Assembly: GCA_942159475.1 (NCBI GenBank)
Contig: OW804094.1
Coordinates: 57,904,966-57,968,965 of the forward strand
Direction: 5' to 3'
Length of the DNA: 64,000 nt
Source of the DNA: Sthenelais limicola
Taxonomy: Eukaryota; Annelida; Polychaeta; Phyllodocida; Sigalionidae
Below are positions 36,490 through 64,000 of this stretch, piece after piece (position 1 is the first letter of the stretch; every line of letters starts with the position of its first letter). The notes beneath the pieces were generated by a model. The model had not been told where the DNA came from, ran no database searches, and saw only the letters and a program-made list of their open reading frames with translations. A program made the position numbers and the translations under genes.

Positions 36490-37347
36490 TTACAGTCTGG
36501 CGTAATCAGCACCACTGATAAGGCTTCGTCCCACCTTCTTTTTGGCGATTTTGGGCTTTCCTTTCATGGTAGAGTCTCCTCCGACCATCGAAAGTGCCAA
36601 CGGGCAGTATGTCTTTGTATGGGCGTTATCTCCGGAGGCTCGGCAGTAAGGGCACTTATAAGCCCTCAAGATGGGGCAGGTAATCCTCCCCATCCCGTCC
36701 CTCAAACAGTGACCAGAATACTGGTGCACGGGTTCCCCATTATTGCGACAGAACACGCATATCGGTTCTCCCCGACCTCCGGAGTTATTGCGGCTGCGGG
36801 GGGGTCCAGATCTGCTGGGGGAAGGCGGGGCAGCGGAGATGATGGTAGATCCTGTGTGGTTGAGACCCAGTCCCCCAAGCAATTGCTGGTTTTGCAGCGC
36901 CAACTGTTGCAGCCGCACCAGTTGGCGTTTCCTTTCACGTTCCTGGCACAACTCCAAGTAAGCTTGGTCGAGGGGATCTCCTAGAGGGCTGAGCGACCTC
37001 AGGGTAGGTGTTGTCGGCGGAGGGCAGGTATAGATGGAAGGAGGAGAGCTCCTAGGACACACGAGTTCCTCCATCCCGATTTGCTGACACAGCAGCCGCC
37101 GATCCCTGAAGAGGGTTCGGTCGGACTCGTCAAGGTCCAAGTCCCTCCCGTTTCTTTCGAAATCGTTGTCTGTATCTAAGGATACTGACTCGAACATTTT
37201 GGATAGTTCTCCCAGTCCAATCGGGGCCGGCTTCTCATCAAAAAGCTGGTAGGTACTCGTCAGGTATGAGACCTTGGGCACGTGGTGGTGGTTGCTGAAG
37301 ATGCCAAGTCCTCCTGTGTAGGATGAGGGGCAAGACAAAGAATACAT
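36490..37347 (-). CDS. nanos: Nanos RNA-binding zinc-finger protein
   Basis: 285 residues, single uninterrupted frame. The C-terminal domain carries the two CCHC zinc fingers diagnostic of Nanos: C197-C200-H213-C224 and C232-C235-H243-C248, with the exact family spacing and core words CVFCRNN, TCPILRAY and GDNAHT. Nanos proteins partner Pumilio and the CCR4-NOT deadenylase to repress mRNAs in germline precursors; that role is known for the family, not shown here. Residues 128-160 (Arg/Gln/Leu-rich) look helical. The N-terminal half is low-complexity and I could not find a clear NOT1-interacting motif. The start at 37347 has a favourable context (A at -3), follows a TATA box by about 120 bases, and is the only good Met. 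No intron is needed in the coding region, as in other intronless nanos genes. The large opposite-strand frame here is a shadow. Confidence 0.95.
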   Translation of the reverse strand: MYSLSCPSSYTGGLGIFSNHHHVPKVSYLTSTYQLFDEKPAPIGLGELSKMFESVSLDTDNDFERNGRDLDLDESDRTLFRDRRLLCQQIGMEELVCPRSSPPSIYTCPPPTTPTLRSLSPLGDPLDQAYLELCQERERKRQLVRLQQLALQNQQLLGGLGLNHTGSTIISAAPPSPSRSGPPRSRNNSGGRGEPICVFCRNNGEPVHQYSGHCLRDGMGRITCPILRAYKCPYCRASGDNAHTKTYCPLALSMVGGDSTMKGKPKIAKKKVGRSLISGADYARL

Positions 37348-37446
37348 TTTGGTAAAGCAGCGAGATGCAGAGATAAATGCAGAGATGAGAGTGATGCGAA
37401 TCTTAAGCTCTTGGTGTTGCGGTGCTGCCTGACGACTACTGACCGG

Positions 37447-37490
37447 GGAACAGGTGGTCGACGAGTTTTATAGATAGTGGGCGTGGCTTC
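37447..37490 (-). promoter_or_regulatory. nanos core promoter: TATA box, E-box, CACCC/GC box
   Basis: On the minus strand, reading towards nanos: gccacgcccac (37477-37487), TATAAAA (37466-37472) and CACCTG (37451-37456). A start site about 30 bases after the TATA box would fall near 37440 and give a 5' UTR of roughly 90 bases. Identified by motif and position only. Confidence 0.55.
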
Positions 37491-41454: not shown

Positions 41455-41710
41455 GGACCGGCGTCACTGGCATATTCATATGCCTCAAGCATTACCGACG
41501 ATTTGACCCACGCCATCTTACTTATCGACACTACCAACAGATAACCCGATGGTCCGCCGATCCGCCGAAAATCATATTTCCCGACTTCCAAGCCACCAAA
41601 ACAATGTACCCACGCCTAGAGAAATAATATAGACTGTGATTACCTCCAATAGATCAAGGTATATCTGGTATAATAAGAGAGAAATAACCGATTCCCCGAC
41701 CCCTATATGC
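41455..41710 (+). repeat. Copy of the repeat found at the 5' side of the Helitron-like element
   Basis: About 250 bases align with 49464-49712: ggcatattcatatgcc at 41469-41484, cccgatggtccgccgatcc, agccaccaaaacaatgta, tgattacctccaatagatca, and gattccccgac. Divergence is moderate. Homology fades after about 41710, so it is either a truncated Helitron 5' end or a non-autonomous relative. Confidence 0.75.
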
Positions 41711-41789
41711 TAAAGCATGAACGGACATTTTACCCTGCGTATGGCCACACGGCATGACTCATAGAATGAAACCCCACTCTCCCGACCAC

Positions 41790-41860
41790 CGCACATAGCG
41801 CAGGGGCAGCCATCTCGCCTCCAGACCTGAGGGTTGGGGGTTCAAGGCTTGCCTGGTCCT
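41790..41860 (+). repeat. tRNA-like sequence, probable SINE head
   Basis: tagcgcaggggcag resembles an A box/D arm and gggttcaaggctt a B box/T arm, with tRNA-like spacing. The sequence lacks convincing acceptor pairing, so a tRNA-derived SINE is likelier than a gene. Confidence 0.45.
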
Positions 41861-41892
41861 CACATCTTTTTATTTTCATCCTCTATTTGTTG

Positions 41893-41917
41893 GGCCGTGT
41901 AGAGCTGCTACACGGCC
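41893..41917. repeat. Hairpin, 10-bp perfect stem
   Basis: ggccgtgtag and ctacacggcc flank the 5-base loop agctg. Confidence 0.8.
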
Positions 41918-42080
41918 GGGACGGGACGGTGGTGGGGACGATGGGTGGGTTTGATGATTTGTGGTGATGGGAAAGGCAGGAGAAACAAAATATCCTATAT
42001 TATCTGCCAAACACTATAATATCCTAGTTAATTTAAGAGTTGTTGTGACGATAGTGTAACCTTGTGCCAGTCACCCTCTG

Positions 42081-42138
42081 GACACATCAGAAAACGGGAA
42101 CTCACCCCTTTGGGGTTCGTCCTGTTTTCTGATGTGTC
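42081..42138. repeat. Hairpin, 18-bp stem
   Basis: gacacatcagaaaacggg (42081-42098) pairs with cctgttttctgatgtgtc (42121-42138) with one G-T position. The loop itself contains the inner palindrome acccctttggggt. Confidence 0.8.
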
Positions 42139-48617: not shown

Positions 48618-49463
48618 TCATGAACTTGACAACACATGACCATACATATGTAATAACAAAGTTGAGAAATGCTTGAGAGAAAATGACCATTCTAGAGAAG
48701 AATAATTGAACAAGAAAAGTATGCAGCATATTTTGAGGGCAGCTAGAGGAATCAAACGAGACACTGGCAGATGTCTTTAAGAGTGTTCAATCCACTAAAT
48801 CCTACTCATACTAAAAGTAACAGCAGGAAGGAAAATAAAAGGAAGTCAGCCAGTTGGAAAAGAAAATAAGATGAGGAAAATAGTATAGAGTTACTAAACA
48901 AAAGAACTGAACCAGGGAAAGCAATAGAATGTTTTCCAAATGATTTTTTCTGGCAAGTCAGCAGTCATGGTTCAACTCAATGCCCTGAATCATAATGTAT
49001 AAGGTCTCCTTCGCCCAAAGATGGACAGAAAGCATAAGGACTTCCTCTGAAAAAAGACCATCTTTGGTCCTGATGTAGTTCTCAAGTTTAAAAAAATCAT
49101 GGAAGACTACAAAAATCAAACTGAAAAAACCAAATCGTGCCAACACTTGAAACATCTGGATGTCGTAGTTTAGAAAGTAGTGACAGTGAAACTGGACATT
49201 TCCAGCGAGAATCTCGCTTTTGAAAGGAGAAGTGACCCATTTCATTTGTTGAGGGGGAAGACAAGCAGGAGTCAATTTGATTTTTGTTTTGCAGTATATT
49301 TATGTTACATGTTTTCAAAGTATATCTGGATCGGGTATAAATGTTGAAGTTTTGTTTCTAGTAGTGTTATTAAAAAAAACCCAGTGGAATCAATTGCTGA
49401 ATATTTAAACAAGGGCAGAATGTTGGTTACATCAAGACGCAAATTATAAAACTTCTTCAACTC
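48618..49463. other. Non-coding, no gene recognised
   Basis: Open frames at 48958-49318 on the minus strand overlap one another and show no domain. Confidence 0.4.
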
Positions 49464-49712
49464 GACCGATCGGCGTCAAGTGGCATATTCATATGCCTCA
49501 AGCTTTACCGAATATATGTGCCACGCCCACTTACTTATCGACAATACCAGTAGAGAACCCGATGGTCCGCCGATCCTCCCAAAATCACATTTCCCGACCT
49601 CCTAGCCACCAAAACAATGTACTGAGGCCTAGAGAATTAATATACACTGCGATTACCTCCAATATATCAAGGTCTTTCTGGTATCACAACCGAGTAATCA
49701 GCGATTCCCCGA
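49464..49712 (+). repeat. 5'-side repeat of the Helitron-like element
   Basis: Homologous to 41455-41710. It contains the near-terminal palindrome ggcatattcatatgcc (49482-49497), a candidate 5' hairpin. Confidence 0.75.
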
Positions 49713-50212
49713 CGCATTTATACAACAGGCATGGCCTTCCATCTTACCATACAAACATAAGCGAAGGGAACAAGCCGTCTTCGGAAACGTTCGGCTTTTA
49801 AGCTCGGCTGCACGGAACCGACCAATCGCCGCCCGCGTAACATACAGCGTCACTCACACTCCTCAACTAATAGAAACACAGCTACTACGCTCGCTCGACT
49901 AGCCTAAACAAACTTGGCCTCGCACGCTGCTTGCCCGTAACGAACTTACAAACACGGAATATTGAAACATCTACAACCAATACAAAACCAGCTAACCTAC
50001 TAAGACGGAACTCGGGGAAATAGATCAAGTGAAACACAGAATGGATAACGATTACCACAACAACAACTACAATCGGTCCGCTCGCACAGGCCACCCTGCA
50101 GACTCCCTTCCTAGCCACAGCCATGACCGCATGCGTCCACACTCAGGATAAGTTCAGATAGGACTAATAACCAAGTTCATCGAACCGCCGAAGTATTACA
50201 GAACCAGGACAT

Positions 50213-50280
50213 TGCCCACTGAGGGACCTTTACTGTGATATTGTGATGCCCACTGAGGGACCTTTACTGTGATATTGTGA
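50213..50280. repeat. 34-bp perfect tandem duplication
   Basis: tgcccactgagggaccttta starts at 50213 and 50247; the two units appear identical. Confidence 0.9.
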
Positions 50281-50296
50281 TTTGTGACATTACCAG

Positions 50297-53200
50297 ATTG
50301 ACACATATGGATCAAAAACATTAGATACTTGCATAGTATCGCCACAACGTACACACAACCACCGAAACCGAAGCGGTGGCACCACAACAAGGATGCAGGG
50401 CACACGCCATCCCCCACCACAGTAATCGTATTGCACCTTTACTTCAAGAAATTTAGGACCAACGAGGGACTGACAACAGGTAAGGCACTTCCAGAAATTA
50501 ACTTAAGAATGTAATACGTCGGGTATTGTTTTCATTCAGTTACCACATATAGGCATCGTTTCAATTAGCCAAACCATAGGTCGAGGGCAGCTCCAACATC
50601 GACAAGTCAAATACCAACATGTACGCAATCGGGCTTTCTCACATATTGATTGTTTACAACACTTTATTGGCGTTTCTGATAATTGTTCACCAGCATAGAG
50701 TAAATAACCCTTTCGTCAAACATTACTTGTCACTACGCTATGTTCTTACACACTGCTAATAAAATCACAACACGCGCGAACTAATAGATATAGCCACTAG
50801 GTGACGACAACAGTACATTATAGTTAAACTGGCAGGAGAAACTTGGTACTATTGTTAGTAGCATGATATCGGGGTGAATTTTCAAGAACACATTACGTGC
50901 CTAATTATGTCCATGAAATAATTCTAACACACTGCAAAAGGAAACAAAACCACACACGAACTAAACAAAATAGCCACTAGGTGGTGACAACGGTCCACAA
51001 TAGTGAGTCTGCCGCGATTCACTTGGTACTATTCTCAGTAGTACGATATCTGGGCTAATTTGAAGTAACTCTTTCTGTGGATAATTGTTTACACGGAATA
51101 CCGGTTACACATTTGTAGTAGGAAAATCACATACCTGCAATGACAAAAATTTACATTGAAAACACGGCCTTATGAAAATGTATAATTGGCAGCTGTACAC
51201 GTTGAGTAAATTCTGCTAAGTTAGGCTCCAATGTCGATAAATACTAGGTAAATTCGAGTATATTCGGTATTGCATTGATTCTAGCAATCTGTTTGTTTAG
51301 GTTGAACTGTATTTTGAACTTTATTTTCCTCTGAAATTTGGGTTATTTGAGAGGATCGGCGAAGTGGAATTGTACATTTTATGAAAATCTGACCCTTATA
51401 TATAATTGCCCCACCAATATTACTCGCCTGCAATAATTTTGGAGGCAAACATATGACTCACACATTTACAGGATTCACTTACTTACACACACACATTACA
51501 TTAATGATTTCAGTCGATGTACCAATTAATAATAGCAGTAGTACTGACGATATGAGTCAATGCGTGTAACAGACAGTTTATTATTGTTGAATTAAAATGA
51601 ATTAAAAATGGCAAACAAAAGGTTACTTTCAATTATTTAGTCGAGCACCACAAACTTAATACTGTAATCGATAACTGCACACAACAGACACAGATTTACA
51701 TTCACGAGCAATATCAAATAATCCAGTGTAGTACAACTATTATTATTAACGTGTACTGAGCAACAATACTTTTACAACAGACAATTATATAAGACAACAA
51801 TATTACCATGTATGTTACATTTACTTACTCAGAGATTGTCATATAACCATATATCACCCACACATATTCTTACCTATTCTGACATAGTATATACAAACAA
51901 TGTTGTGCAGAGCTAACAATGCTTTGTAATCATGCCTATAAAGGGAGAAGTAGTCCTCAACAAAATTAATGCCACAAAATAAAATAAAATCAGATAATAC
52001 AATACCAATGCAATGGAAATTCACATATTCACGAGTCACTCATACTCATGCCTATTTATTTACAGACTTGTCTCCGGACAGAAAACCATATGTGACAACC
52101 GAATGTCCCGATTATGGTACAAATAGGATCCAGCACGGCCAGAAACGTCCAAATAGAACCACATGCGCCCACACAATACGTATTGGAAAAACCACAGAAC
52201 CAGGTAACATATTTCAGTGACGTACCATATTGATTCCAAAGAAAAAATAGATTATATATAATATAAAAATTGACTGGTGAACGAAATGCACATTCGTGCA
52301 AAAAGACAATCACTACTTTTAAACATACCTATCCTAATGATCAATCACAACAACATAAATCGGTAAATTTTCATACAACCATCATTAATTGTATTACAGA
52401 CAACAGCACTCCGCAAGAACTGCACCGCGCCAGCTCATTGTAACAGGGACATTACACCCCTATCGTAGCATCAAATGTACTACACAAAGAGGAATTCAGC
52501 TCCTAGAGGTCCGGAAAAGATAGACCCACTTACCAACACATGACATTGTAAGTCAACTTTAATAATGACAGATACCTCTTTCAGCAACATTTACAAAATA
52601 CATTCGCTTCAGTGTTACCGCGCTAATTTACGCCATAATGAATCAAACACATATAAATCCACATAACACCAGGCTAACAATAGTTATTATCAAAGTATAA
52701 CTAGACATGGAATGAATGACAGAAGTTACATGAAATGATATACAAAAATCGAACAACTAATCGGGACAGACTTCGTCCACGAACATAAACAATGCCTATA
52801 TAATGCTACTTGCTTTTGCAGACAAACAACCTAATGCGTACACGAGATACAGCATGCAACCAACGAGGAATGAAGTAGGCGACCGCTCAACCAAATGAGC
52901 TCATACCCCATCACGAATAGTAAGTAAATCAATTCACTTTAGCTACACATATAATTACTAACCAAAGTATTTCATCGCCTAAGTCATGTTGATATTTTAA
53001 TCGTTTTATAACCGCAGATTAAACTTACAACTTCAGTCACATTCTTCATGCCGTCCTCTCCTTTAATATTATACATACACACCAGTTCAAAACATTCGCT
53101 ACAAAGTAATCATTAGTGACAATCCTCCATTGCATGTGATTCTTCATGGAGGAAACCCTGAATTTAACTATTGAATACGTAGTGTTGCAAATGTTAATAG

Positions 53201-53544
53201 ACTCATGTTACCATGGCAAGTACACACTGTTGCAGATTCATCATTAAATAAACAAATCCTTTTAGAAACCGAATATATGTAGCGGTATTCTTTTAAGCAA
53301 GCTGAATTAAACTTAGTTCACAGGACCTTCATCGTCATTACTACAGAAAGTGGCGAGTAGTTAACAACAATTAGACTCAACGCTAATATATACATATATA
53401 GAGTATTATTATGTAAGTGTCAACAATCAACCATCAGAAATTATTTCTATAGTACTTCTGAAAACATAATCATACACTTATTAGTCAGATCAATTAGACT
53501 CTAAAATTATACTTTCAGCACAACAACCACCATATCAACCAACC
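50297..53544 (+). other. Putative spliced leader exons of the Helitron-like transcript
   Basis: Intron-exon boundary words recur in this A/C-rich region. One candidate exon spans 50297-50479 (attaccag before, then caacag/gtaagg). Another spans 52066-52203 (ttatttacag before, then accag/gtaaca). Others begin at 52400 (gtattacag) and 52822 (cttttgcag, ending 52919 before gtaagt). The last begins at 53519 after tactttcag, 26 bases before the ATG at 53545. Several start with ACAAC-like words. These are motif-based guesses; apart from the 53519 acceptor each is weak alone. Confidence 0.4.
50760..51060. repeat. Diverged tandem repeat, period about 177 bases
   Basis: atagccactaggtgacgaca (about 50794) and atagccactaggtggtgaca (about 50970), each followed by acttggtactatt and a gatatc word. 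Confidence 0.75.
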
Positions 53545-56500
53545 ATGGACTCAGATATGGAATTCGAGATGCACATGGACAGCACAATACAGGCGGAGCT
53601 TCAAAACAGCATGGACGAGGAAATGCCACTGGATCAAGACCCAGACAGAGTGTGTGCTACCTGTCATCGTAACTCCACTGAAGACCAGCTACTAACATTC
53701 ACTGCACCACCACCACGACCAGTACAGAGGGCATATGGTGATGCGCCAGATCAAGCAGGAGTCAACCCCCTTGTATGTAACCAGTGTTACATCTATCTGA
53801 GTCGTAGTACAGATGTTTCAAAAGAAAAAACTTGGGCTTGCGCCTGGCCAGCGGTTATTTGGTCCATTCTAAGTGGAAACGTAGCCTGTCCACCAGAGAT
53901 ATTGTTACCTATTCTGCCTTATTCCATACGAACAATGTGGTGCATAGCTAACGAGGACATTAATCTTGCCTATCGTCGCCTGTGGCACGAACAGCCAGTC
54001 GTTAATGATATTACTGCAGACCTCATAGAATTTAAGCTAGTTACATCGAAAGGTTCTTTGTCCGAAATCAAGCAAATAGTCGATCAACATTGTTTCCCCT
54101 ATGTGCGATGCCCATTAGGCTGCTGTATATTTATCGATGATGTACTAGCAGAAAAGGCTCAGATCATACCACTACATCATTACTTGGCCGACAAATTATC
54201 AAAATTTACACCATTTGCTGCTAATGGAAAATACTTGCTAGGCTGTAGACCGGATTGGATGTCTGTGAAAAGGACATTAATATGGAACATACAACCCTCA
54301 CTTGTCAGAGACGAAACTAAGGGACTTGGATTCATTGCATGTTCCGACAAACAACATGCTTCAACCATGTATCAATATCTCCATGTGCCAAACAATCCCA
54401 TCTTAAAATCGACTCCAGCGACCCACTCAACTGACTTAGCACCAGCACAATTGTGTCCAAACTTTGTTCGTGCCGGACGGGGAGGACAATATAACACATC
54501 ATTCACAGTTTTTCAACAGGTCGGAGGAGCAATGGGCCTATCAACCTTTAGACTATCAATGAGACCGAACAACCGCATCCTCACACATGACGAAGGAGCA
54601 ATTGATGCCTTAGTCCTTCACCAGAGGGATGATATAAGACACTGCGCACTCAATTCTACAATATTGGGACCTGATTTCGTCAAACGAGCACTAGCATATT
54701 GGGAAGCATCGAAGCCACTGTATTCGGATCCCTTTATAAGAAATGCTGCTAAGTCGGGTACAATGTTCTTATGTACAGAAGCCGTGTATCTGACTGTTGC
54801 CCTCAACAATCGTCATGCACGTGACAACCAGGTGCAAAATAGACCACAAGAAGAGCAACAACATACGCGGTATGACTACCACCCTATGGTACACCCAGCG
54901 GACGACTTTGGCCACAAGCCGTTTCGGGTACACCACGTACACCACCACAGTGAAGAACAAAACTACTCAGATGGTTGCACTATCACCATTCTTGCATATA
55001 CGCTTACACATTGCAATGTACTTATTCACAATTTTCTTTCTGCAATGGCACGACAACGGGTGACGGACAATGCAGTGAACTTGTACAATTATTGTGCCGA
55101 TATACAATTACAGACGCCCTTTAGCCGGGTCAAGCAAAGAACCCTAGCAGAAACAGATAGCCAGATCATAGAAGAATATGACGGACAACGTAGAATCAGT
55201 CGATACAAATACGAACTGGCAGCGGGAAAATATTTGAGTGACTTGTGTGAACATGTTGATTTCATTCAAGTACAAACATCTGACGTTGAAAATTCTCTCA
55301 GACTGGTTGATGCCAGGTGTACAATTGTTTTACTGACTGACAGAAACTTAAGAAGAATGCAAGTCCTGAGTGTCACAGAAGACTCCAAATGGAACCTCAT
55401 GTTTGCTATCACTGCAGTATGTCCACCAACTACCGGATACTCCATCGCCATGGCCTTCAGATGGGATGTCCACAGAGACTGGCAAACAAGTTCCAATACT
55501 CCACGACAATTGGAAGACACCGCTTATCGTCTCTTAGTTTATGTGAATAAGGAGACAACAGAAGACCTTGACCGAGACCAGGTACTCCTATGGTGTGGGG
55601 GCCAAACTCACAAACATTGCAGCGAGCACAACGTCTCTCACCTAATAAGGGAATCACTGGGTACATCTCTTACATGCTGTCTCGACAACTGCAGTAGGAA
55701 AATGAAATGGCGGTGTCCGCATTCTTTTGCTTTTCATCAGTGCCAAGCAGGTGTATGCCTAAAACATCAAAAGGAACTATGCCAGAATGAAACCATTACA
55801 GAAGTAACAGTGAGGGAAACGAACAGTGACTCTGCACCTGACGAGACAACACATGATATGCAAGATGAACACCACGCACTCACTCCACAGGAAGTAGAAG
55901 ACTTGGAACAGGCGATGAGAAATGAGGAAGTTCCCATAGAAAACAATGCTCCTGAAGACCACCTGGAACCAGGACACAGTGATGACGAGGACGAAGCATT
56001 TGTAATCGGGCCAATAGCTCTTCCCACAGATAATGATGACCCAAACATTCCACTTATTGCAAATACAACCTACACACCAACTTATTTATCGGACAACAGC
56101 GATGCCATTGCGGGCCATTTCCTCATTAACGACCACCTAAAGACGATGGCTAGAACCTCCTTCTACAGGCCTCCTTCCGTCCAGACCCAAAAGTTTCTGC
56201 AGCACATATGCTCCGTAACTAAGGACACAGCAATACCACTAATCTACCCGGAAGGTAGCCTATTTCCCCATATTTTCTGGGAAGACAAAAACAACACGGT
56301 AGTAGGTGCGTTGCCATCTGTTATGTACACGAAAGGCTACATGAAACCACGCAAGGGGGCATTGGCCTCCGTTGAAGACCACCTGACAGTGCGGATAAAG
56401 GACGAGACGTTGCTTACTTGCCACGATGAAGTGTATCTGCAATGGGTATTCGACATACTTGTTAATCAGGCCCTGAACTACAATAGTGCCGCAGTAGTCA

Positions 56501-56748
56501 TCAATAAGGGACTAGAACATCTAAGAAGACCACAAGATGGATCACTAGTCAGCCACAGAGAAGGGATGCTTCCATTCGATGAGATCGATGCCCGCCGACA
56601 GGTCCATCGCATCGCTGCATTAATGCGGGACTTGGAGGGTTTTGATTATTTCATTACCCTCACAGCAAAACCTTCGGTGTACGCCCATTGGTGGAGGCAA
56701 TACAACAAGAGTATGGCCCGGATAAAAACAACATCCTCAAAGGAATGA
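53545..56748 (+). CDS. Helitron-like protein, N-terminal part (Cys-rich modules and start of Rep domain)
   Basis: 1,067 residues. CxxC pairs at 37-40 and 78-81 suggest a zinc-binding module; a second Cys/His-rich block lies at about 708-750 (CC..C...WRCPHS...VCLKH...LC). An acidic linker follows (about 790-855). From about 895 the sequence looks like the Helitron N-terminal region (IYPEGSLFPHIFWED), and FDYFITLTAKP (1033-1043) is Rep motif 1. The frame ends at a TGA just after motif 1, while the rest of Rep continues in another frame, so the last 15-20 residues are probably out-of-frame. The ATG has a strong context (accATGG) and sits 26 bases after a splice-acceptor-like site. The middle (residues 100-700) I do not recognise; no OTU or AP-endonuclease motif is apparent. 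Confidence 0.85.
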   Translation: MDSDMEFEMHMDSTIQAELQNSMDEEMPLDQDPDRVCATCHRNSTEDQLLTFTAPPPRPVQRAYGDAPDQAGVNPLVCNQCYIYLSRSTDVSKEKTWACAWPAVIWSILSGNVACPPEILLPILPYSIRTMWCIANEDINLAYRRLWHEQPVVNDITADLIEFKLVTSKGSLSEIKQIVDQHCFPYVRCPLGCCIFIDDVLAEKAQIIPLHHYLADKLSKFTPFAANGKYLLGCRPDWMSVKRTLIWNIQPSLVRDETKGLGFIACSDKQHASTMYQYLHVPNNPILKSTPATHSTDLAPAQLCPNFVRAGRGGQYNTSFTVFQQVGGAMGLSTFRLSMRPNNRILTHDEGAIDALVLHQRDDIRHCALNSTILGPDFVKRALAYWEASKPLYSDPFIRNAAKSGTMFLCTEAVYLTVALNNRHARDNQVQNRPQEEQQHTRYDYHPMVHPADDFGHKPFRVHHVHHHSEEQNYSDGCTITILAYTLTHCNVLIHNFLSAMARQRVTDNAVNLYNYCADIQLQTPFSRVKQRTLAETDSQIIEEYDGQRRISRYKYELAAGKYLSDLCEHVDFIQVQTSDVENSLRLVDARCTIVLLTDRNLRRMQVLSVTEDSKWNLMFAITAVCPPTTGYSIAMAFRWDVHRDWQTSSNTPRQLEDTAYRLLVYVNKETTEDLDRDQVLLWCGGQTHKHCSEHNVSHLIRESLGTSLTCCLDNCSRKMKWRCPHSFAFHQCQAGVCLKHQKELCQNETITEVTVRETNSDSAPDETTHDMQDEHHALTPQEVEDLEQAMRNEEVPIENNAPEDHLEPGHSDDEDEAFVIGPIALPTDNDDPNIPLIANTTYTPTYLSDNSDAIAGHFLINDHLKTMARTSFYRPPSVQTQKFLQHICSVTKDTAIPLIYPEGSLFPHIFWEDKNNTVVGALPSVMYTKGYMKPRKGALASVEDHLTVRIKDETLLTCHDEVYLQWVFDILVNQALNYNSAAVVINKGLEHLRRPQDGSLVSHREGMLPFDEIDARRQVHRIAALMRDLEGFDYFITLTAKPSVYAHWWRQYNKSMARIKTTSSKE

Positions 56749-57158
56749 AGGACCATTGCTCCCTGCTTTGTCGAGCATGGCAGAGAACAGTAATGCACTT
56801 TTTGGACTGGATAAAACACAGCCCTGAAAAGCCATTCGGCGAAGTTGAAGCAATCTGGGCTCGGTATGAGTTTCAGACCCATGGAGCATTAGGCAACAAA
56901 CCGCACATACATGGATTCATAAAAGTGCTTAATGAGGACCATGATACAAAGATCAAACGCATCAGATGCACCACATCCAATTTGTTTACAGCAGACATTG
57001 GAACTGACCACGACACCCTACTAACAGCGGGCCTTATACAAAATGAAGAGGACTTTGATGATTTACGGAGTATGGCGTCAACGTTTCAAGTCCATGACTG
57101 CTCTCTAGCCAACAATCGTTGTCAGAAATTCAACCGAGACGGAGAAAAGGTGTGTTGA
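56688..57158 (+). pseudogene. Helitron-like Rep domain, HUH segment (middle part, frame-shifted)
   Basis: Open in a different frame from the preceding part, from about 56646 (after a TGA at 56643) to the TGA at 57156; no ATG near its start. It carries the metal-binding HUH motif as PHIHGFI (His at 73 and 75 of this segment, 56904-56912), preceded by the usual EFQ..G block, then HDCSLANNRCQKF, matching the Cys/His stretch that follows HUH in Helitrons. It overlaps the previous frame by about 60-100 bases, consistent with a one-base deletion near 56.69 kb or, less likely, programmed -1 frameshifting; no canonical slippery heptamer is visible. The closing TGA is one CpG transition from CGA, and protein-like sequence continues in the same frame. 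Confidence 0.8.
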
Positions 57159-57209
57159 GTCCAAAGACATCCACCATCATATGACTACGGTTTTTCAGGA
57201 AATGCCAAC

Positions 57210-60200
57210 ATGTACGATGATGATAAACTCACGCTATTTAAGGAAATGGGATTCATCACGGAAACAGAAGCAGGAATAGAACAGTTGGACTCAAAGTTCA
57301 TTGGAGGACGGTACACGTACCCCGCAAACAGAGATGAGGTTTACATCCCAACAGTTCCTCATATCTTAATTGCGCTCAACTCCTGTTCCAATGTTCAAAT
57401 GGTAGACACACGCTTCCAAGTCAGTTACGTATGTAAATATGCAGCTGGCTTGGAGGAGCACAGAGAGGCCAATTTTCAAAAACAAAAGGATGAAGATGAA
57501 GTCAAAGTCACCTATGACGAATTTAAGAACATTAAGATTTCCAGCCAGGCCAAACTACATGAAAAGACGAAAAACCAGAAACTAGCAAGAGAGATAAGCC
57601 TGACAGAAATGATGTGGTATTCCCTCCGGCTCCCGTTTATACTCACAGACAATGAGTATACTCATGTATCGACCTTTGCACCCGAGTATCGTGGAGCCAT
57701 AACAAAGCGTCATGCAAAAGTAGCAGAAGCACAAGGAGGCGGAGAAGAGCCGAAACCCATCAGAATGAGGCAAGATCTGGATGAGAGGCGTCAGTTTACT
57801 GTGTCCCAACAAACGATAATTACACAGTACTACGAGAGCGTTTACTATATGGACACCACGTGGGCCTTCTCCATGAGACCACCCGAGCTCTTGTACATTG
57901 AACACTTGGAAATATATGCAAAATACTTCAAGCGCTTACCAACACACGGCAATGACGAGCTCACAGTAGACATGGCAGAGTCTCCATGGATCGACGGGAC
58001 GGGAAAGACGGTCAAAATCAGGCAACGATATCTACTTGAAGTTGCGGCATACACAGAAGTTGCGAGCAACAACGATCAACACTTTTCCCAGGAAATCGCC
58101 ACGTCAGTCCTGACCGAGATCCTCAACGATTTAGTCGAAATGGAACATAGTGACAACCATAGCCCATTCTACAATCGTTTCGTTGACAGAAAAAGCACCC
58201 AGCGCAACATAGTCGTATTTCCAGCAGTGACACCGTTTCAATTACCAAAATTTCTTATCCATCTGATGCTCTCATCTGGAAGGTACATCACAGAAGTGGA
58301 CTTGTACGGAGTCCCCAATCTCCAAGCTGCGTTGGTACAGAGCAACATATTTGATACCCTTCAACCAACTAGGATGGATATCGTGACTGTTGTCAAGAAA
58401 TATTTACTAGAGCAACTAATGTGGCTGCCAATGGGCAACAGACAGGTTCAGAAAATATTGCGCTACATACCGACAGCACTACAATCACTAATGATAGACA
58501 ATGAACTACAGTTTGAGAGTATGCCACTGGCCACTGACTTGGCCATTTCTCTTCAAGCTAGTGAAGATTTGACACGACTAGAAACAACGATGCGTAGTAA
58601 TGCTGTAATAGCACTTTCTCACCAAAGCATTGTCAACTTTCCTCCAGTCGATGAACTGAAAAAAGGCACTCCTACACTCTATCAGCCACAATTGCGACGG
58701 ACTGCAGGACAAAGTGACCCTTCCTTCAGAGAGCAGCAATTGTCCCTAGTTCAACTAAAAAAGGCAATAGACGACCTGAACCGGCGCAACCATTCATTCG
58801 TACGTTTCCCCTTATTGTTAGGGCCACCAGGATCTGGAAAAACTTATCTACTCCTGATTGCTTTAACATACGCCTTGTCAAAGGGCTTCAGAGCTACCCT
58901 TACTGCACTGACCGCTGAAAGGGCCCAGGTTCTTGGTGGGGAACATGTCCATCTACTCTTCGGATTGCCGGTCCAACAAGGAGGAGTCCAGACTGTACAC
59001 AACATGGCGGAGAGATCTCTAGGCAAGTTAGCCCGACAAAATGTAAGAATGGAGTATTTACGCCGGCTCCAAGTCCTCTGCATTGAAGAGATTGGACTCA
59101 TAAATTCGGAAACCTTCGCCACAATGGATCTCATACTCAGACGCATAAGACAATCACCTATCCCATTTGGCGGGGTTCTTATTTTAGCAACGGGTGACCA
59201 CGTCCAGTTACAACCGGTCAACGGACAGACGATTTGGACCTGCAGCCACATGTTTACAACGTTTTCCATCCTAAAACTAAACAACTATGTCCGGAGTGCT
59301 ACCGATGAAGACCTACAAATGGTTCTAAACATCATGCGCCAACATGAGACGTCAGAAGACCAGGTGCAACAAGTATTGACGATACTTAGAAGGCGATGCA
59401 CGCAAAATAACTTCTATCCCGATTGGTCCTCTGTTCCCATTGACATATTGCGTGTGCTCCCAACTCGCAAAGCAGTCGAAGATGCAGTCCAAAAACACAT
59501 CATGGAAAAGAAAAGGGACAGGCAGCTCGTTACCAAATCATTTACGGCAGTCGATGAGGTAGAAGTGACATCTGGCAACTGGATCGCCGGTGATGCAAAT
59601 GTAACCAACACTTTAAACCAGAAATGTGCACAACACCAAAGTATACTCTTGTACGCAGGAGCAATAATGCGGCTCACATACAACAACAGCCGCCAATCCA
59701 ATCTTCCTCGTTTTTCGCAAGGCCAGCTGTGCATAGTACGGGAAATACCAGAAGTGGAAAATGACACAGTAATCGGTGTAGATATGAGACTGTCCATAAC
59801 CTTAATTCCACCAGGGGAAAGACTCATGCAAATAGACAATATTCCGGATGAATGGCCTACCTTTGTCATAACACCACGAGTAAGTTTACCGGTCATTATA
59901 CCACGTAGCAACAGTAATGCCCGGCGACTACAATGGCCGCTACAATTCCACGTAGCATCCACAATACACAAGATCATTGGCGAGACATGCTCACAGTTGG
60001 CGACACAAATAAGTACACAGTCGTTCATGTATCATATCTGGGAAAAGGGCATGCTCTTGGTTCTACTTAGTCGAGTTCGAGACCTGAATCACATGTTTTT
60101 CATTGGTACAGTCGCAGACACTTTCAATGCAATCACCATCATGCTACGGCAATCATCCAAAGTGCAAGCTACTATTGAAAGGACTCTCCGACAGCTTGAC

Positions 60201-60704
60201 ATACTGAACGATACCCCCAGAAGTGTCACCAATAATTTCATTCAGCTACATAACGATATCCCAAATTATGACATGGGCTTTCTTTATATGCTGGCAAGTA
60301 CAAAAGGCCCCACCCAGTGTTACATCGGCGAAACAGGAAACATCAGAAGGAGGTTGACACAACACAACAGTGGCCATGGGGCCATTTACACACATGAAAT
60401 GGCACTGCGGCCCTGGTGCCTGTACGTACTTGTTACCGGTTTCCCAGGTAATGGTACTGAGCAAGCCAACATCAACTCGCGAAAGCACATGGAGCATTTA
60501 TGGCATCAGGCAATAGCAAATATACCTTTGCAGCAGCGAGATACCATAACAGTTGCAGCAGCCGGCCAAGTGGTTTTCCAAAATTTTAAGGAAAGACACC
60601 CTAACCTAACACTACAGTGGCTGCAATGTGGACAATTAGTGCGACAAGCCATTGACACTGTACCAGATAATGCAATTGAGCCCAACGAAGCAAATCCAAC
60701 TTAA
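57210..60704 (+). CDS. Helitron-like protein, C-terminal part: Rep tyrosines, Pif1-type helicase, GIY-YIG nuclease
   Basis: 1,164 residues from the first ATG; the frame is open from 57159, so this is a continuation rather than a separate gene. SYVCKY supplies the Rep tyrosine pair (Y73, Y77; YxxKY). The helicase follows: Walker A GPPGSGKT (538-545), Walker B CIEEIG (624-629), motif III GDHVQLQPV (662-670), the TIHK..GET block (about 917-925) and LSRVR (about 953-957), the set seen in Pif1-like SF1 helicases. Residues 1023-1095 then form a GIY-YIG nuclease: GFLY (1023), CYIGETGNIRRRL (from 1037) with the catalytic-type Arg, QHNSG, and a late Glu (1095). About 70 further residues follow. GIY-YIG enzymes nick DNA and occur in Penelope-like retroelements; I do not know it as a standard Helitron part, whose known accessory nuclease is AP-endonuclease-like (Helentrons). 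Confidence 0.9.
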   Translation: MYDDDKLTLFKEMGFITETEAGIEQLDSKFIGGRYTYPANRDEVYIPTVPHILIALNSCSNVQMVDTRFQVSYVCKYAAGLEEHREANFQKQKDEDEVKVTYDEFKNIKISSQAKLHEKTKNQKLAREISLTEMMWYSLRLPFILTDNEYTHVSTFAPEYRGAITKRHAKVAEAQGGGEEPKPIRMRQDLDERRQFTVSQQTIITQYYESVYYMDTTWAFSMRPPELLYIEHLEIYAKYFKRLPTHGNDELTVDMAESPWIDGTGKTVKIRQRYLLEVAAYTEVASNNDQHFSQEIATSVLTEILNDLVEMEHSDNHSPFYNRFVDRKSTQRNIVVFPAVTPFQLPKFLIHLMLSSGRYITEVDLYGVPNLQAALVQSNIFDTLQPTRMDIVTVVKKYLLEQLMWLPMGNRQVQKILRYIPTALQSLMIDNELQFESMPLATDLAISLQASEDLTRLETTMRSNAVIALSHQSIVNFPPVDELKKGTPTLYQPQLRRTAGQSDPSFREQQLSLVQLKKAIDDLNRRNHSFVRFPLLLGPPGSGKTYLLLIALTYALSKGFRATLTALTAERAQVLGGEHVHLLFGLPVQQGGVQTVHNMAERSLGKLARQNVRMEYLRRLQVLCIEEIGLINSETFATMDLILRRIRQSPIPFGGVLILATGDHVQLQPVNGQTIWTCSHMFTTFSILKLNNYVRSATDEDLQMVLNIMRQHETSEDQVQQVLTILRRRCTQNNFYPDWSSVPIDILRVLPTRKAVEDAVQKHIMEKKRDRQLVTKSFTAVDEVEVTSGNWIAGDANVTNTLNQKCAQHQSILLYAGAIMRLTYNNSRQSNLPRFSQGQLCIVREIPEVENDTVIGVDMRLSITLIPPGERLMQIDNIPDEWPTFVITPRVSLPVIIPRSNSNARRLQWPLQFHVASTIHKIIGETCSQLATQISTQSFMYHIWEKGMLLVLLSRVRDLNHMFFIGTVADTFNAITIMLRQSSKVQATIERTLRQLDILNDTPRSVTNNFIQLHNDIPNYDMGFLYMLASTKGPTQCYIGETGNIRRRLTQHNSGHGAIYTHEMALRPWCLYVLVTGFPGNGTEQANINSRKHMEHLWHQAIANIPLQQRDTITVAAAGQVVFQNFKERHPNLTLQWLQCGQLVRQAIDTVPDNAIEPNEANPT

Positions 60705-60752
60705 ATTAAAACAGAAATTAAAGAGAGTAACTTAAATCGAGTGCATGTAATC

Positions 60753-60801
60753 ATGAGAGAAACTATTTAAACCAACCAATGAGAGAAACTATTTAAACCA
60801 A
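60753..60801. repeat. 26-bp-period direct repeat
   Basis: atgagagaaactatttaaac at 60753 and 60779, just after the stop codon. Confidence 0.85.
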
Positions 60802-60979
60802 GCCCTTGAACATTCACTAAAATGATTAATCAACTCAAGTACCAACAGTGAAACTTCCATTAAAACGTTGCTCTGTATAATAATGCATGTGTACTTATAA
60901 CCAGTTGTGATGTGTCATGCCAACCGTTTGACCTTGAAGTTGACGATCTAAAACTTGCAAAAACTTATCTTCACCTGAT

Positions 60980-61283
60980 TTGATTTAACATGTGAGTTTT
61001 GATTTGATTGCTTCAACTTGTGACTTGTGACTTAAATTTTAAATTGTGAAAAACATGACATTCAAGTCGACCATTTTTACACTTGAGTTGTGATTTGAAT
61101 AAACATGTGAGTAGTGATTTGATTGCTTCAACTTGTGACTTGTGACTTAAATTTTAAATTGTGAAAAACATGTCATTCAAGTCGACCATTTTTACATGCT
61201 AGTTTTGATTTGATTGCTTTAACTTGTGAATTGTGACTTAGATTTTAAATTGTGAAAAACATGACATTCAAGTCGACCATTTA
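60980..61283. repeat. Minisatellite downstream of the Helitron-like ORF, about three units
   Basis: gatttgattgctt begins at 61001, 61116 and 61207; each unit continues with cttgtgacttaaattttaaa-like sequence and ends ttcaagtcgaccattt. Unit lengths are 115 and 91 bases, differing by an extra ttgagttgtgatttgaataa block. Minisatellites near an end are common in some Helitron/Helentron groups. Confidence 0.85.
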
Positions 61284-62056
61284 GGGACTTTGTTACTAAG
61301 GAATGTTCATTGAAAAATTTATATTTTTATTTGCAACGTGTGTTAAAAGGTTTATACTTATCCAAATGTCATGGATATTTTAGATTATAAAGGTTTCCTC
61401 GCCGTCTTGTAAGAAAAAGTAGAACAAGTGATTTAGTGTTTAAGAAGTCGCAATGAGGCAAAATTTGTCACTATTAGACGTCAGCCATTGCAACGTGAGA
61501 ATCAATGTGCAAAACATGTAGTATTACGGCGTTTGGAACAATATATCCGGTTACATTACAGTTAAAAAGTCACTATTTATGTACGTTAATACAGGATCCC
61601 ATAAGGCACTCCTTCCTAGTGTTACCGAATCGATATTTTATAGCCTATAGGTAAATTTAGAAATAAATGGTATTTACTAATTACACGTTTCAATGACGTA
61701 ATATAATACTGGAAATCGGTAACTACTGTTCAACTAAGAGTGTAAATATAAGTCTGTTGTCTTCCTTCTAAGTGCGACTACTCAACAAATGATGGTGCAA
61801 CTATTGTTATTTAATAAATGACTGTATTACAGCAATTGTCTCTCGATCGAACGCTTGAAAATGCAGGAGGACGCAAAATAAAAGGTCTATTTTCATTAAT
61901 TTATTATCTTGAGCATTTGATTCATTCAAATTACGAATTGAAATAATTTTCTCGCAAATTGGCCTTAGTTACACGGCGCTGAATATTTATTATACAAGTA
62001 ATTGTCCCAATTGACGAAAAAAGGATATGAAGACTTTTATTTTGATTACCAAGAGG
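61284..62056. other. AT-rich, no gene recognised
   Basis: No supported frame or RNA gene. Confidence 0.4.
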
Positions 62057-62215
62057 TTAATATTGATCAGACTTGTAGTTGCAATAACTTACGGGCAAAC
62101 CACATTTCAAAGTGCTGCATGTCAGACTATCCCAGAGCTTAATATTGATCAGATATGTAGTTGCCACAACTCAGGCGAGATTTCAAAATGCTGCATACGT
62201 CAGAGTATCAGTTAA
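62057..62215. repeat. Diverged tandem repeat, period 82 bases
   Basis: ttaatattgatcag starts at 62057 and 62139, each unit continuing through gtagttgc and tttcaaa.tgctgcat. Confidence 0.8.
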
Positions 62216-63039
62216 ATCTTTCACTTTGGAAAATTAAATGAACTTATAGATATGCACGTTAATCTTTGATATTTATCACCTGCCAAGAAGTGCTTTACTT
62301 AATAGACATTACATCGACATATTTCGCGTTGCTCTACATTTTACTGCTTAGAAATATATGCCACGAGATAAATTAATTTTTATTTAACAAAAGCTACTTC
62401 AAACGAAAGAGTAAAGTCGATAAATGTTTGAATACTGCAAAATTAAGCACAACATTTTATTAACAAACACATGACGACAGTTTCTCATACAAATTTTCAT
62501 TAAAAAGAAGATGCATAGATGATACATTTATCTGACTACAATACAAAATAAACGTCACTGTTCAGTCGGCAGTACTAGGCGTGTAGGCGCCCCTAGTCTG
62601 CAGACGTATTGAAAAAATAAAGCATGCCAACCTATGTCAGGCACTCCAGTAGATGAGCAATCGTTTATTAACGAACCACTTCCTAAGGTTAATTATAACA
62701 TAGTGAAGTTCATTCAAAATAAAATGATTAGACGATAAATCAAGTTGCCATTACGAATAAACTCTTCTGGAAGACTTCTGGAGTCTGGCAGAGTAATTTA
62801 AATTTAAAATACCAACAAACGGGAGGCTATAAAGTACATATAGTCAATAGCAAATAGCACCAACTCATCCAAACGTGAGCACCACTTCAGACATTTCCCT
62901 GAGTTAATAGATGAGATGCACCATAGCTACCCAAATGGACGTTACAAAATATTCAGCGACTTGATTTGTTGACATTAAATCCAACCTTCATATACTTATC
63001 GGATAAAAGGGCTATATAGTTGCAACAAACTAAAAAAAT

Positions 63040-63480
63040 AACTGGGACCGAATAGCTTACTTTACTTACTACACTGACAGACTACAATAACAAAATAGAA
63101 GTAGGGACTAACTGGTCGTAAAAATATATGGACCACCACTATAAGTTAAGCTGACTTAACTTTACTTTACTACACGGACGAGTACAATAACCTAATCACT
63201 GATACAACTAGGGACTAACTGGTCGTAAAAATATATGGACAACCACAAGCTCAAATTGCTGAAAAGGCCAAATACAGATTGCTATGGGGAACGATGAAAA
63301 TTGTGTTTCCAGCCACACAATAAATGACAAAATTAAAATGTAAGAGGATTTCAAGTTAAAATAATCCTGCGTTAAAAAAATTTAAGTCGCCCCAAGCATA
63401 CAGAATCCAAATTGTGAATTCTTCTAGTTAGAATCATAAGTGGACTTGTTATAAAAAATTTACGTCACGGCAAGCATAAA
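63040..63480. repeat. Two sets of diverged tandem repeats
   Basis: tagggactaactggtcgtaa recurs at about 63101 and 63208 (period about 107). Separately, aaaaatttaagtcgccccaa (about 63376) and aaaaatttacgtcacggcaa (about 63456) recur with a period near 80-90. The interval 62216-63040 between arrays shows nothing recognisable. Confidence 0.65.
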
Positions 63481-63525
63481 GCATCCCAAATGTCAATTAC
63501 GACACGACTCCAGTTTCCTGACTTA

Positions 63526-63807
63526 TTAGGCTGCTGGCTGATATCTGTCGCGCACGGCGCACTCTACCGCAGGCACCACAACCTCTACATCAGCTGGTTG
63601 CAGCAGCAACTCTGGAAGCTCCCTCTCGGGCATCACATACGTAATGTGGAACTTGCGGCCACTGGCAGCCTTGGCGCCAGAAACAATGGCGGACTTGTAC
63701 CATCCTGAGAGGATCCATTTAATACCGGCATCTTGGTATTCTCGCAGCACGACAGTAATGTGTCTCCTGAGGTCGTCCACATCTAATTCGGGAGCGCCTT
63801 GCTTAGG
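63526..63807 (-). CDS. Terminal exon of an unrecognised minus-strand gene
   Basis: The minus strand has a good 3' splice site (tttattttgaattgcag) ending at 63808, then 93 codons to a TAA at 63526. The peptide begins PKQGAPELDVDDLRRHITVV, contains IKWILSGWYKSAI and GRKFHITYVMP, and ends RDRYQPAA. It has sensible composition with high Arg/Asp/Glu and no low complexity, which sets it apart from nearby chance frames. Upstream exons would lie beyond the window end. I do not recognise a family. It may be an accessory gene of the Helitron-like element or an unrelated host gene. Confidence 0.45.
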   Translation of the reverse strand, partial: PKQGAPELDVDDLRRHITVVLREYQDAGIKWILSGWYKSAIVSGAKAASGRKFHITYVMPERELPELLLQPADVEVVVPAVECAVRDRYQPAA

Positions 63808-63840
63808 CTGCAATTCAAAATAAATTATTATTATTTTATG

Positions 63841-63999
63841 TCCACTATAGTTAGACACATGGAAATGATTAAACCGATTGAATAAAATTCAGCCTACAGT
63901 AACCTAATCTATTTAATTAGGATTTATAACGAAATAAATATTAGCTAGTGCACTAGCTAAATACTATAATATCCACTATAGTTAGACACATGGAAATGA
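63841..63999. repeat. 28-bp direct repeats 131 bases apart, enclosing a 20-bp perfect palindrome
   Basis: tccactatagttagacacat... occurs at 63841-63868 and 63972-63999. Between them TTAGCTAGTGCACTAGCTAA (63941-63960) is its own reverse complement. They may be the first units of a tandem array that continues past the window, or a transposon end. Confidence 0.75.
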
Positions 64000-64000
64000 A

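Follow-up and report, generated by a model that had tools for sequence, protein, structure and literature searches.

Introduction

Rolling-circle transposition is known from the bacterial IS91, whose transposase is not known to carry a helicase or an extra nuclease and inserts beside a preferred tetranucleotide, CTTG or GTTC, as well as from the Helitrons and Helentrons of eukaryotes, the latter inserting next to a T. In canonical Helitrons such as Helraiser (7lcc), a Rep with an HUH motif and two tyrosines is colinear with a PIF1-like helicase (together RepHel), the ends are 5'-TC and CTRR-3', and insertion is at AT. The parts of the published descriptions consulted here add that Helentrons bear an extra nuclease at the RepHel C-terminus and subterminal inverted repeats (PMC4067079), that in Helitron2 elements the 5' hairpin overlaps one half of a short, asymmetric inverted repeat, the other half being subterminal at the 3' end (PMC3627910), and that GIY-YIG nucleases are found in other eukaryotic transposons, the Penelope-like elements and Terminons, of which Terminons can carry Rep proteins (PMC6431247). 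Here we describe the computed domains, fold, conservation, selection, termini and multi-copy state of an element in a 64,000-nucleotide stretch of the Sthenelais limicola genome (contig OW804094.1, forward strand, positions 57,904,966 to 57,968,965; hereafter the window, starting at C1:57904966). We lean towards the view that the open reading frame (ORF) 57210-60704 is the C-terminal half of a Helitron-like RepHel transposase, in an element of about 17.5 kb, and that nicking of branched DNA is the likeliest task of the GIY-YIG nuclease fused to it.

Domain architecture of the transposase

The ORF 57210-60704 on the plus strand encodes 1164 amino acids (aa). The preliminary description had read a Rep YxxKY motif, a PIF1 helicase and a C-terminal GIY-YIG nuclease from this one frame, and all three are borne out: the tyrosine motif is YVCKY (residues 73-77), PIF1 is matched in Pfam at residues 535-699 (51.8 bits), and PF01541, the profile expected for the C-terminus, is matched at residues 1022-1079 with 32.9 bits against a cut-off of 22.6 (E 8e-8). 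The columns of Y73 and Y77 are at least 90% conserved in the family alignment A3. The ORF represents a partial protein: ORFs 53545-56748 and 56688-57158, upstream of it, hold a long N-terminal stretch and, near 56,904, the HUH motif GNKPHIHG. The window copy is decayed, and a frameshift near 56.7 kb together with a stop at 57156-57158 split the transposase frame into the following pieces and motifs:

53545-56748, plus strand: frame 1 of the Rep-helicase-nuclease ORF, its N-terminal portion (Cys pairs spotted by eye; in frame with the rest in copy A2)
56688-57158, plus strand: Rep (HUH) part, second frame, terminated by the stop at 57156-57158 (PF14214, below cut-off)
56904-56912, plus strand: H-I-H codons of the HUH motif (motif scan)
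57210-60704, plus strand: ORF with Rep tyrosine motif, middle region, PIF1 helicase and GIY-YIG domain (translation and Pfam)
57426-57440, plus strand: YVCKY, the two Rep tyrosines (motif and column conservation)
58821-58844, plus strand: Walker A motif GPPGSGKT of the PIF1 helicase (translation)
60273-60446, plus strand: GIY-YIG nuclease domain (Pfam match and fold comparison)

Copy A2, located on C2 and 99% identical to the window copy, has one open frame of 2,389 codons. Within its first 2,225 residues PF14214 (Helitron_like_N) exceeds the cut-off (39.3 vs 28.9 bits), as compared to 24.7 bits in the broken window copy. The N-terminal ORF 53545-56748 matched no Pfam family. A structure model of the whole ORF 57210-60704 (mean pLDDT 80.5, pTM 0.54) found mostly helicases, Helraiser included, with SLX1 absent from the 50 matches listed. 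NCBIfam returned weak matches only, all below cut-off, and PHROGs a Dda-like helicase along with weak matches to other families.

An SLX1-like nuclease domain

The GIY-YIG domain is closest to SLX1 in the PDB, far ahead of the homing enzyme I-TevI, in a comparison to which Penelope nucleases did not belong. The nuclease type given in the preliminary description stands; that description had named such nucleases as typical of Penelope-like retroelements and homing endonucleases, and SLX1 is nearer than the homing enzyme I-TevI. With SLX1 of the SLX1-SLX4 pair the domain shares the GIY-YIG fold, five active-site positions, and the RPW and GF motifs; it differs in being fused to a transposase.

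Across the family, PF01541 was matched in 24 of 33 proteins (9/13 plus 15/20, at E up to 0.01). In 29 aligned C-termini, P0005 and P0011 among them, the GIY Tyr is kept in 27, the YIG Tyr in 24, the Arg in 24, the His in 26 and the Glu in 22. Six of the nine proteins negative for PF01541, namely P0005 (Hyalella), P0011 (Cyprideis), P0028 (Myxine), P0030, P0034 and P0035, are without the region or have other sequence there, and the remaining P0003, P0006 and P0029 retain the region with an eroded motif and the catalytic residues lost. Since P0003 and P0006 fall into a clade with P0005 (support 92/86) and P0029 elsewhere in the tree, the catalytic motif was lost at least twice. Selection was assessed on a pair of open copies, A2 (2,389 aa) of the window's family and B5 (2,387 aa) of the family 88% identical to it, where the ratio of nonsynonymous to synonymous substitution rates (dN/dS) is 0.067 for the nuclease (93 codons), 0.049 for the helicase and 0.064 for Rep, with 0.162 for the N-terminal part, 0.196 for the C-terminal tail and 0.090 overall. 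The SLX1-like domain has probably been present in the transposase since the ancestor of the sampled family.

Copies in the host genome

A search of the genome (1.13 Gb, 161 contigs) yielded 313 candidate places for the transposase, 40 of which were scored. The nuclease domain is covered at 38 of these 40 places, and 18 have an open frame of at least 2,146 aa that is free of stops within the match. Identities to the window protein fall into classes of 98-100, 88, 63-67 and 51-57%. B6 is open like B5, at 2,387 aa, and counted from the first ATG the longest frames reach 2,244 (B7), 1,380 (B9) and 1,225 aa (B1). Equal frame lengths and near-equal scores were observed for three pairs of places, C2:13993374/C4:126661888, C2:59169515/C7:62406246 and C5:60774473/C5:126917406, the ends having been inspected for the first of them. 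Such pairs at different places suggest recent movement, and the element looks young in this genome.

Relatives and spread

Three protein searches, with about 8,000 candidates scored in each, recovered at least 32 relatives besides the window protein (P0002-P0013 and P0023-P0042), 22-46% identical to it. The fusion, on which the preliminary description had based a distinct Helitron lineage, is found again within this genome, in copies both nearly identical and divergent, and in divergent relatives, among them proteins of Perkinsus olseni and P. chesapeaki; together with the PF01541 match this clears both grounds on which that description would have fallen. The gene models of the relatives from Hyalella azteca, Cyprideis torosa and Myxine glutinosa show no nuclease. 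Both Helitron-order features, the HUH/two-tyrosine Rep and the PIF1-like helicase in the same protein, are present in the family: the HUH motif (GN..H[ILVM]H) in 20 of 26 scanned proteins, YxxKY in 24 of 26 (P0003 and P0008 being without it), and PIF1 in 30 of 33 (13/13 plus 17/20). The separation from Helentron-type AP-endonuclease domains is also supported: Pfam, searched at E up to 0.01 with the 33 proteins and also with residues 1-2,225 of A2, matched no AP-endonuclease family, and GIY-YIG is found instead. An OTU protease, which Helentrons occasionally carry, as they do RPA genes, was matched in one of 20 members (E 0.0041).

In the tree the family is split, with support 98/97, from six Helitron proteins without GIY-YIG, taken from a comparison set (P0043-P0047, P0049 and P0050) defined by that lack alone and not by Helitron type. 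The tree left out P0034 and P0035 (too short) and P0049, contains no named Helentron or Helitron2 protein, and was flagged for long branches meeting among the Helitron rows without GIY-YIG and for uneven composition in 11 rows. The proposed lineage is distinct from these six proteins by the tree, and set apart from Helentron and Helitron2 by description. Against the seven Helitron proteins without GIY-YIG, the profile of the family reaches no more than 11-86 bits. Four scans of viral contigs, run with the A1 profile, part of Helraiser, P0026 and a helicase DNA motif, detected no relative, nor did two scans of prokaryote genome contigs with P0001 and the helicase DNA motif.

Relatives are filed under ATP-dependent DNA helicase (Hyalella, Cyprideis) or GIY-YIG endonuclease (three JGI entries) rather than transposon, and the lineage may thus be overlooked. 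In line with the preliminary description, whose author knew of no standard account of this architecture, no paper on the fusion was found in the open-access literature (titles and abstract starts; subscription papers and Repbase reports were outside the scope). The portions consulted of PMC3627910, PMC6431247, PMC5718144, PMC12910113, PMC6213432, PMC4067079, PMC5753468, PMC10294476, PMC7960049 and PMC8287910 likewise do not describe a RepHel-GIY-YIG fusion. We read the element as a variant of the Helitron-like transposons that did not come up in the open-access literature searched.

Boundaries and termini of the element

Neither hairpins nor CTRR ends were found when the surroundings of the ORF were searched for them, and the ends emerged only from comparison of ten autonomous copies: the window copy, A2, A7, five B copies, and the ends of two C copies. 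B6 (no 5' end seen) and A7 (no 3' end seen) are missing from the respective end counts. The terminal features, including a short non-autonomous copy, are:

49465-64000, plus strand, and beyond the window up to the counterpart of 66,952: Helitron-like element, 17,488 bp (sharp homology limits against other loci)
49461-49464, plus strand: 5' flanking tetranucleotide CTCG
49482-49497, plus strand: 5' subterminal hairpin GGCATAT-TC-ATATGCC (fold of the window copy end)
60976-61282, no strand: tandem repeat with a unit of about 105-115 bp, in the 3' part of the element (repeat scan and sequence)
41457-42081, plus strand: non-autonomous derivative, 625 bp, sharing 246 bp at its 5' end (85%) and 23 bp at its 3' end

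The 3' end of the window element lies 2,952 bp past the window, in locus L023, and the 5' end possibly a base or so before 49,465. The copy alignments break up at the tandem repeat, downstream of the RepHel ORF. The element runs from 5'-AC to CTCTGG-3', the latter being present at all nine autonomous 3' ends seen as well as at that of the short copy, and CTNG stands before it at every one of the nine autonomous 5' junctions observed, against a background of 1.0% of window positions. The CT and G are taken as flank rather than element, because the base between them varies in near-identical copies and because the short copy is preceded by TAGG. The two bases following CTCTGG are AC in seven, TC in two and AT in one of ten cases, and no consistent target duplication was found at the five copies examined. 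The shared ends of the 625-bp copy appear as would those of a non-autonomous derivative mobilised in trans.

The ends of two A copies, a B copy, a C copy and the short copy were inspected. In these five, a 5' hairpin with family-specific arms starts from base 13-20, its position being roughly the same in the B and C families although the arms differ. A short asymmetric inverted repeat of 5-7 bp pairs the 5' arm with a site that stands 10-12 bases before the 3' terminus, as ACTGGCA/TGCCAGT in A2, AGTGGC/GCCACT in B7 and ATGGCA/TGCCAT in c1, and a shorter one, TGGCA/TGCCA only, in the window copy. In any one copy these repeats are short enough to arise by chance, and the argument is their matched position in three families. 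The 3' folds are weak: one B copy has a stem of 4 bp close to its end, and the window copy folds weakly in another way.

The termini thereby resemble those of Helitron2 and Helentrons, though not in exact places or bases, as far as the consulted parts of PMC3627910 and PMC4067079 describe them. The 5' repeat is located 9-16 bases in, as opposed to the 0-2 given for Helitron2 in the part of PMC3627910 at hand, and the element further differs from Helitron2 by its extra nuclease and a start with A rather than T; of the 3' hairpin of Helitron2 only the weak folds above were seen. Compared to Helentrons, the nuclease is of SLX1-type GIY-YIG with no AP-endonuclease matched, and the AC...CTCTGG ends following CTNG depart from Helentrons, with their insertion next to T, and from canonical Helitrons, whose 5'-TC and CTRR-3' ends and AT insertion were not encountered. 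Insertion by a rolling-circle transposase beside a preferred tetranucleotide is shared with IS91. Penelope-like elements, compared by description, are retroelements with a reverse transcriptase, and Pfam matched no such domain in A2 or in any of the three ORF pieces of the window.

Proposed role of the nuclease and alternatives

By homology to Helraiser, Rep with its HUH motif and two tyrosines would nick and rejoin the transposon strand, and the PIF1 helicase would displace the nicked strand. Branched DNA would then form at two places: at the donor, as the displaced strand departs, and at the target, as the new strand is joined to it. For the nuclease we infer enzymatic activity, substrate and step: by analogy to SLX1, described as structure-specific in the source material consulted, our preferred mechanism is that it would nick branched transposition DNA, either the strand opposite the joined single strand or the donor fork. 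We prefer the branch at the insertion site over the donor fork, since repair could copy the joined strand once the strand facing it had been nicked. In this manner transfer of one strand may be turned into a two-strand insertion without awaiting host replication.

Several observations weigh against this proposal. Helraiser-type Helitrons transpose without such a nuclease domain, and the eroded motif of P0003, P0006 and P0029 indicates that catalysis is dispensable in some branches. No zinc finger following the GIY-YIG domain was matched by Pfam in the window ORF, whereas SLX1 has one. The A2 flank contains an adjoining 5-bp repeat, ACTAG, that is readable as a target duplication, and the element ends and the apparent lack of target duplication are deduced from copy comparison. 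SLX1 by itself is moreover, in the part of the literature consulted, a weak nuclease that is stimulated by SLX4.

Alternatively, the nuclease may select or open the target by nicking, with Rep then joining the element there, as suggested for the Helentron endonuclease. The precedent of a C-terminal endonuclease on RepHel (PMC4067079, part consulted) and the CTNG before the element at every autonomous junction seen are in favor of such a role, which we nevertheless deem rather unlikely: the 3' terminus itself ends in CTGG, so that Rep cutting alone can account for the CTNG flank, the non-autonomous copy is preceded by TAGG, and SLX1 recognizes structure. It is more doubtful still that the domain serves mainly as a DNA-binding or folding module with dispensable catalysis. 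While 3 of 33 proteins retain the region despite an eroded motif, following at least two losses, the catalytic residues are maintained in 22 to 27 of 29 C-termini, and in the one pair compared the nuclease dN/dS is about as low as for helicase and Rep.

Helitrons capture gene fragments, and the window copy is broken, which would fit an accidental fusion in the form of an annotation artefact, a chimera or a single captured host SLX1 fragment. This we regard as highly improbable in light of the nuclease at 38 of 40 scored places, the fusion in the two Perkinsus proteins and others at 22-46% identity, and the low dN/dS. Hardly any weight is similarly left for the reading that this is no transposon but a PIF1-type helicase gene of a cell or virus; the PIF1 matches are strong, but PF14214 is above cut-off in A2, the HUH and YxxKY motifs are present, and the 313 candidate places (40 scored), common termini at different loci and a non-autonomous derivative speak against it. 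A chance or frame artefact was rejected on the basis of the Pfam match, the 24 of 33 relatives and the 38 of 40 scored genomic places.

Second gene and neighboring sequence

A second, conserved gene, downstream of the transposase and convergent with it, is represented by two exon-like ORFs, both matching the C-terminal part of the Hyalella model P0005:

63529-63888, minus strand: exon-like ORF of the second gene
190-915 of L023 (window 64,190-64,915), minus strand: further exon-like ORF of the second gene

The match to P0005 is best in B5 (E 2e-13 and 3e-10) and about 1e-8 in the window copy. The gene is probably spliced, and the Hyalella model may be a run-on of transposase and second gene. 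Judged from sequence, the second gene is common to this element and an amphipod (Hyalella) element. No Pfam family reached its cut-off with this gene, and the PDB yielded no match to its main exon-like piece. Elsewhere in the window, an open frame at 36490-37467 on the minus strand is a nanos gene, with the nanos RNA-binding domain PF05741 at 80.4 bits, which marks the host as an animal.

Implications

To our knowledge it is not settled by what route a Helitron gets from the transfer of a single strand to an insertion of two, and a transposase with a predicted branched-DNA nuclease of its own would offer a direct handle on the need for a second cut. Because this genome has copies with long open frames, as well as nearly identical ones at separate loci, it may contain an element that still works. 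Divergence within the family is deep. It is conceivable, though we put it forward tentatively, that a deep eukaryotic branch of rolling-circle elements, the core of which occurs from protists to a hagfish, solved the second-strand problem by fusion to an SLX1-like nuclease, such that one protein would nick, unwind, transfer and cut.
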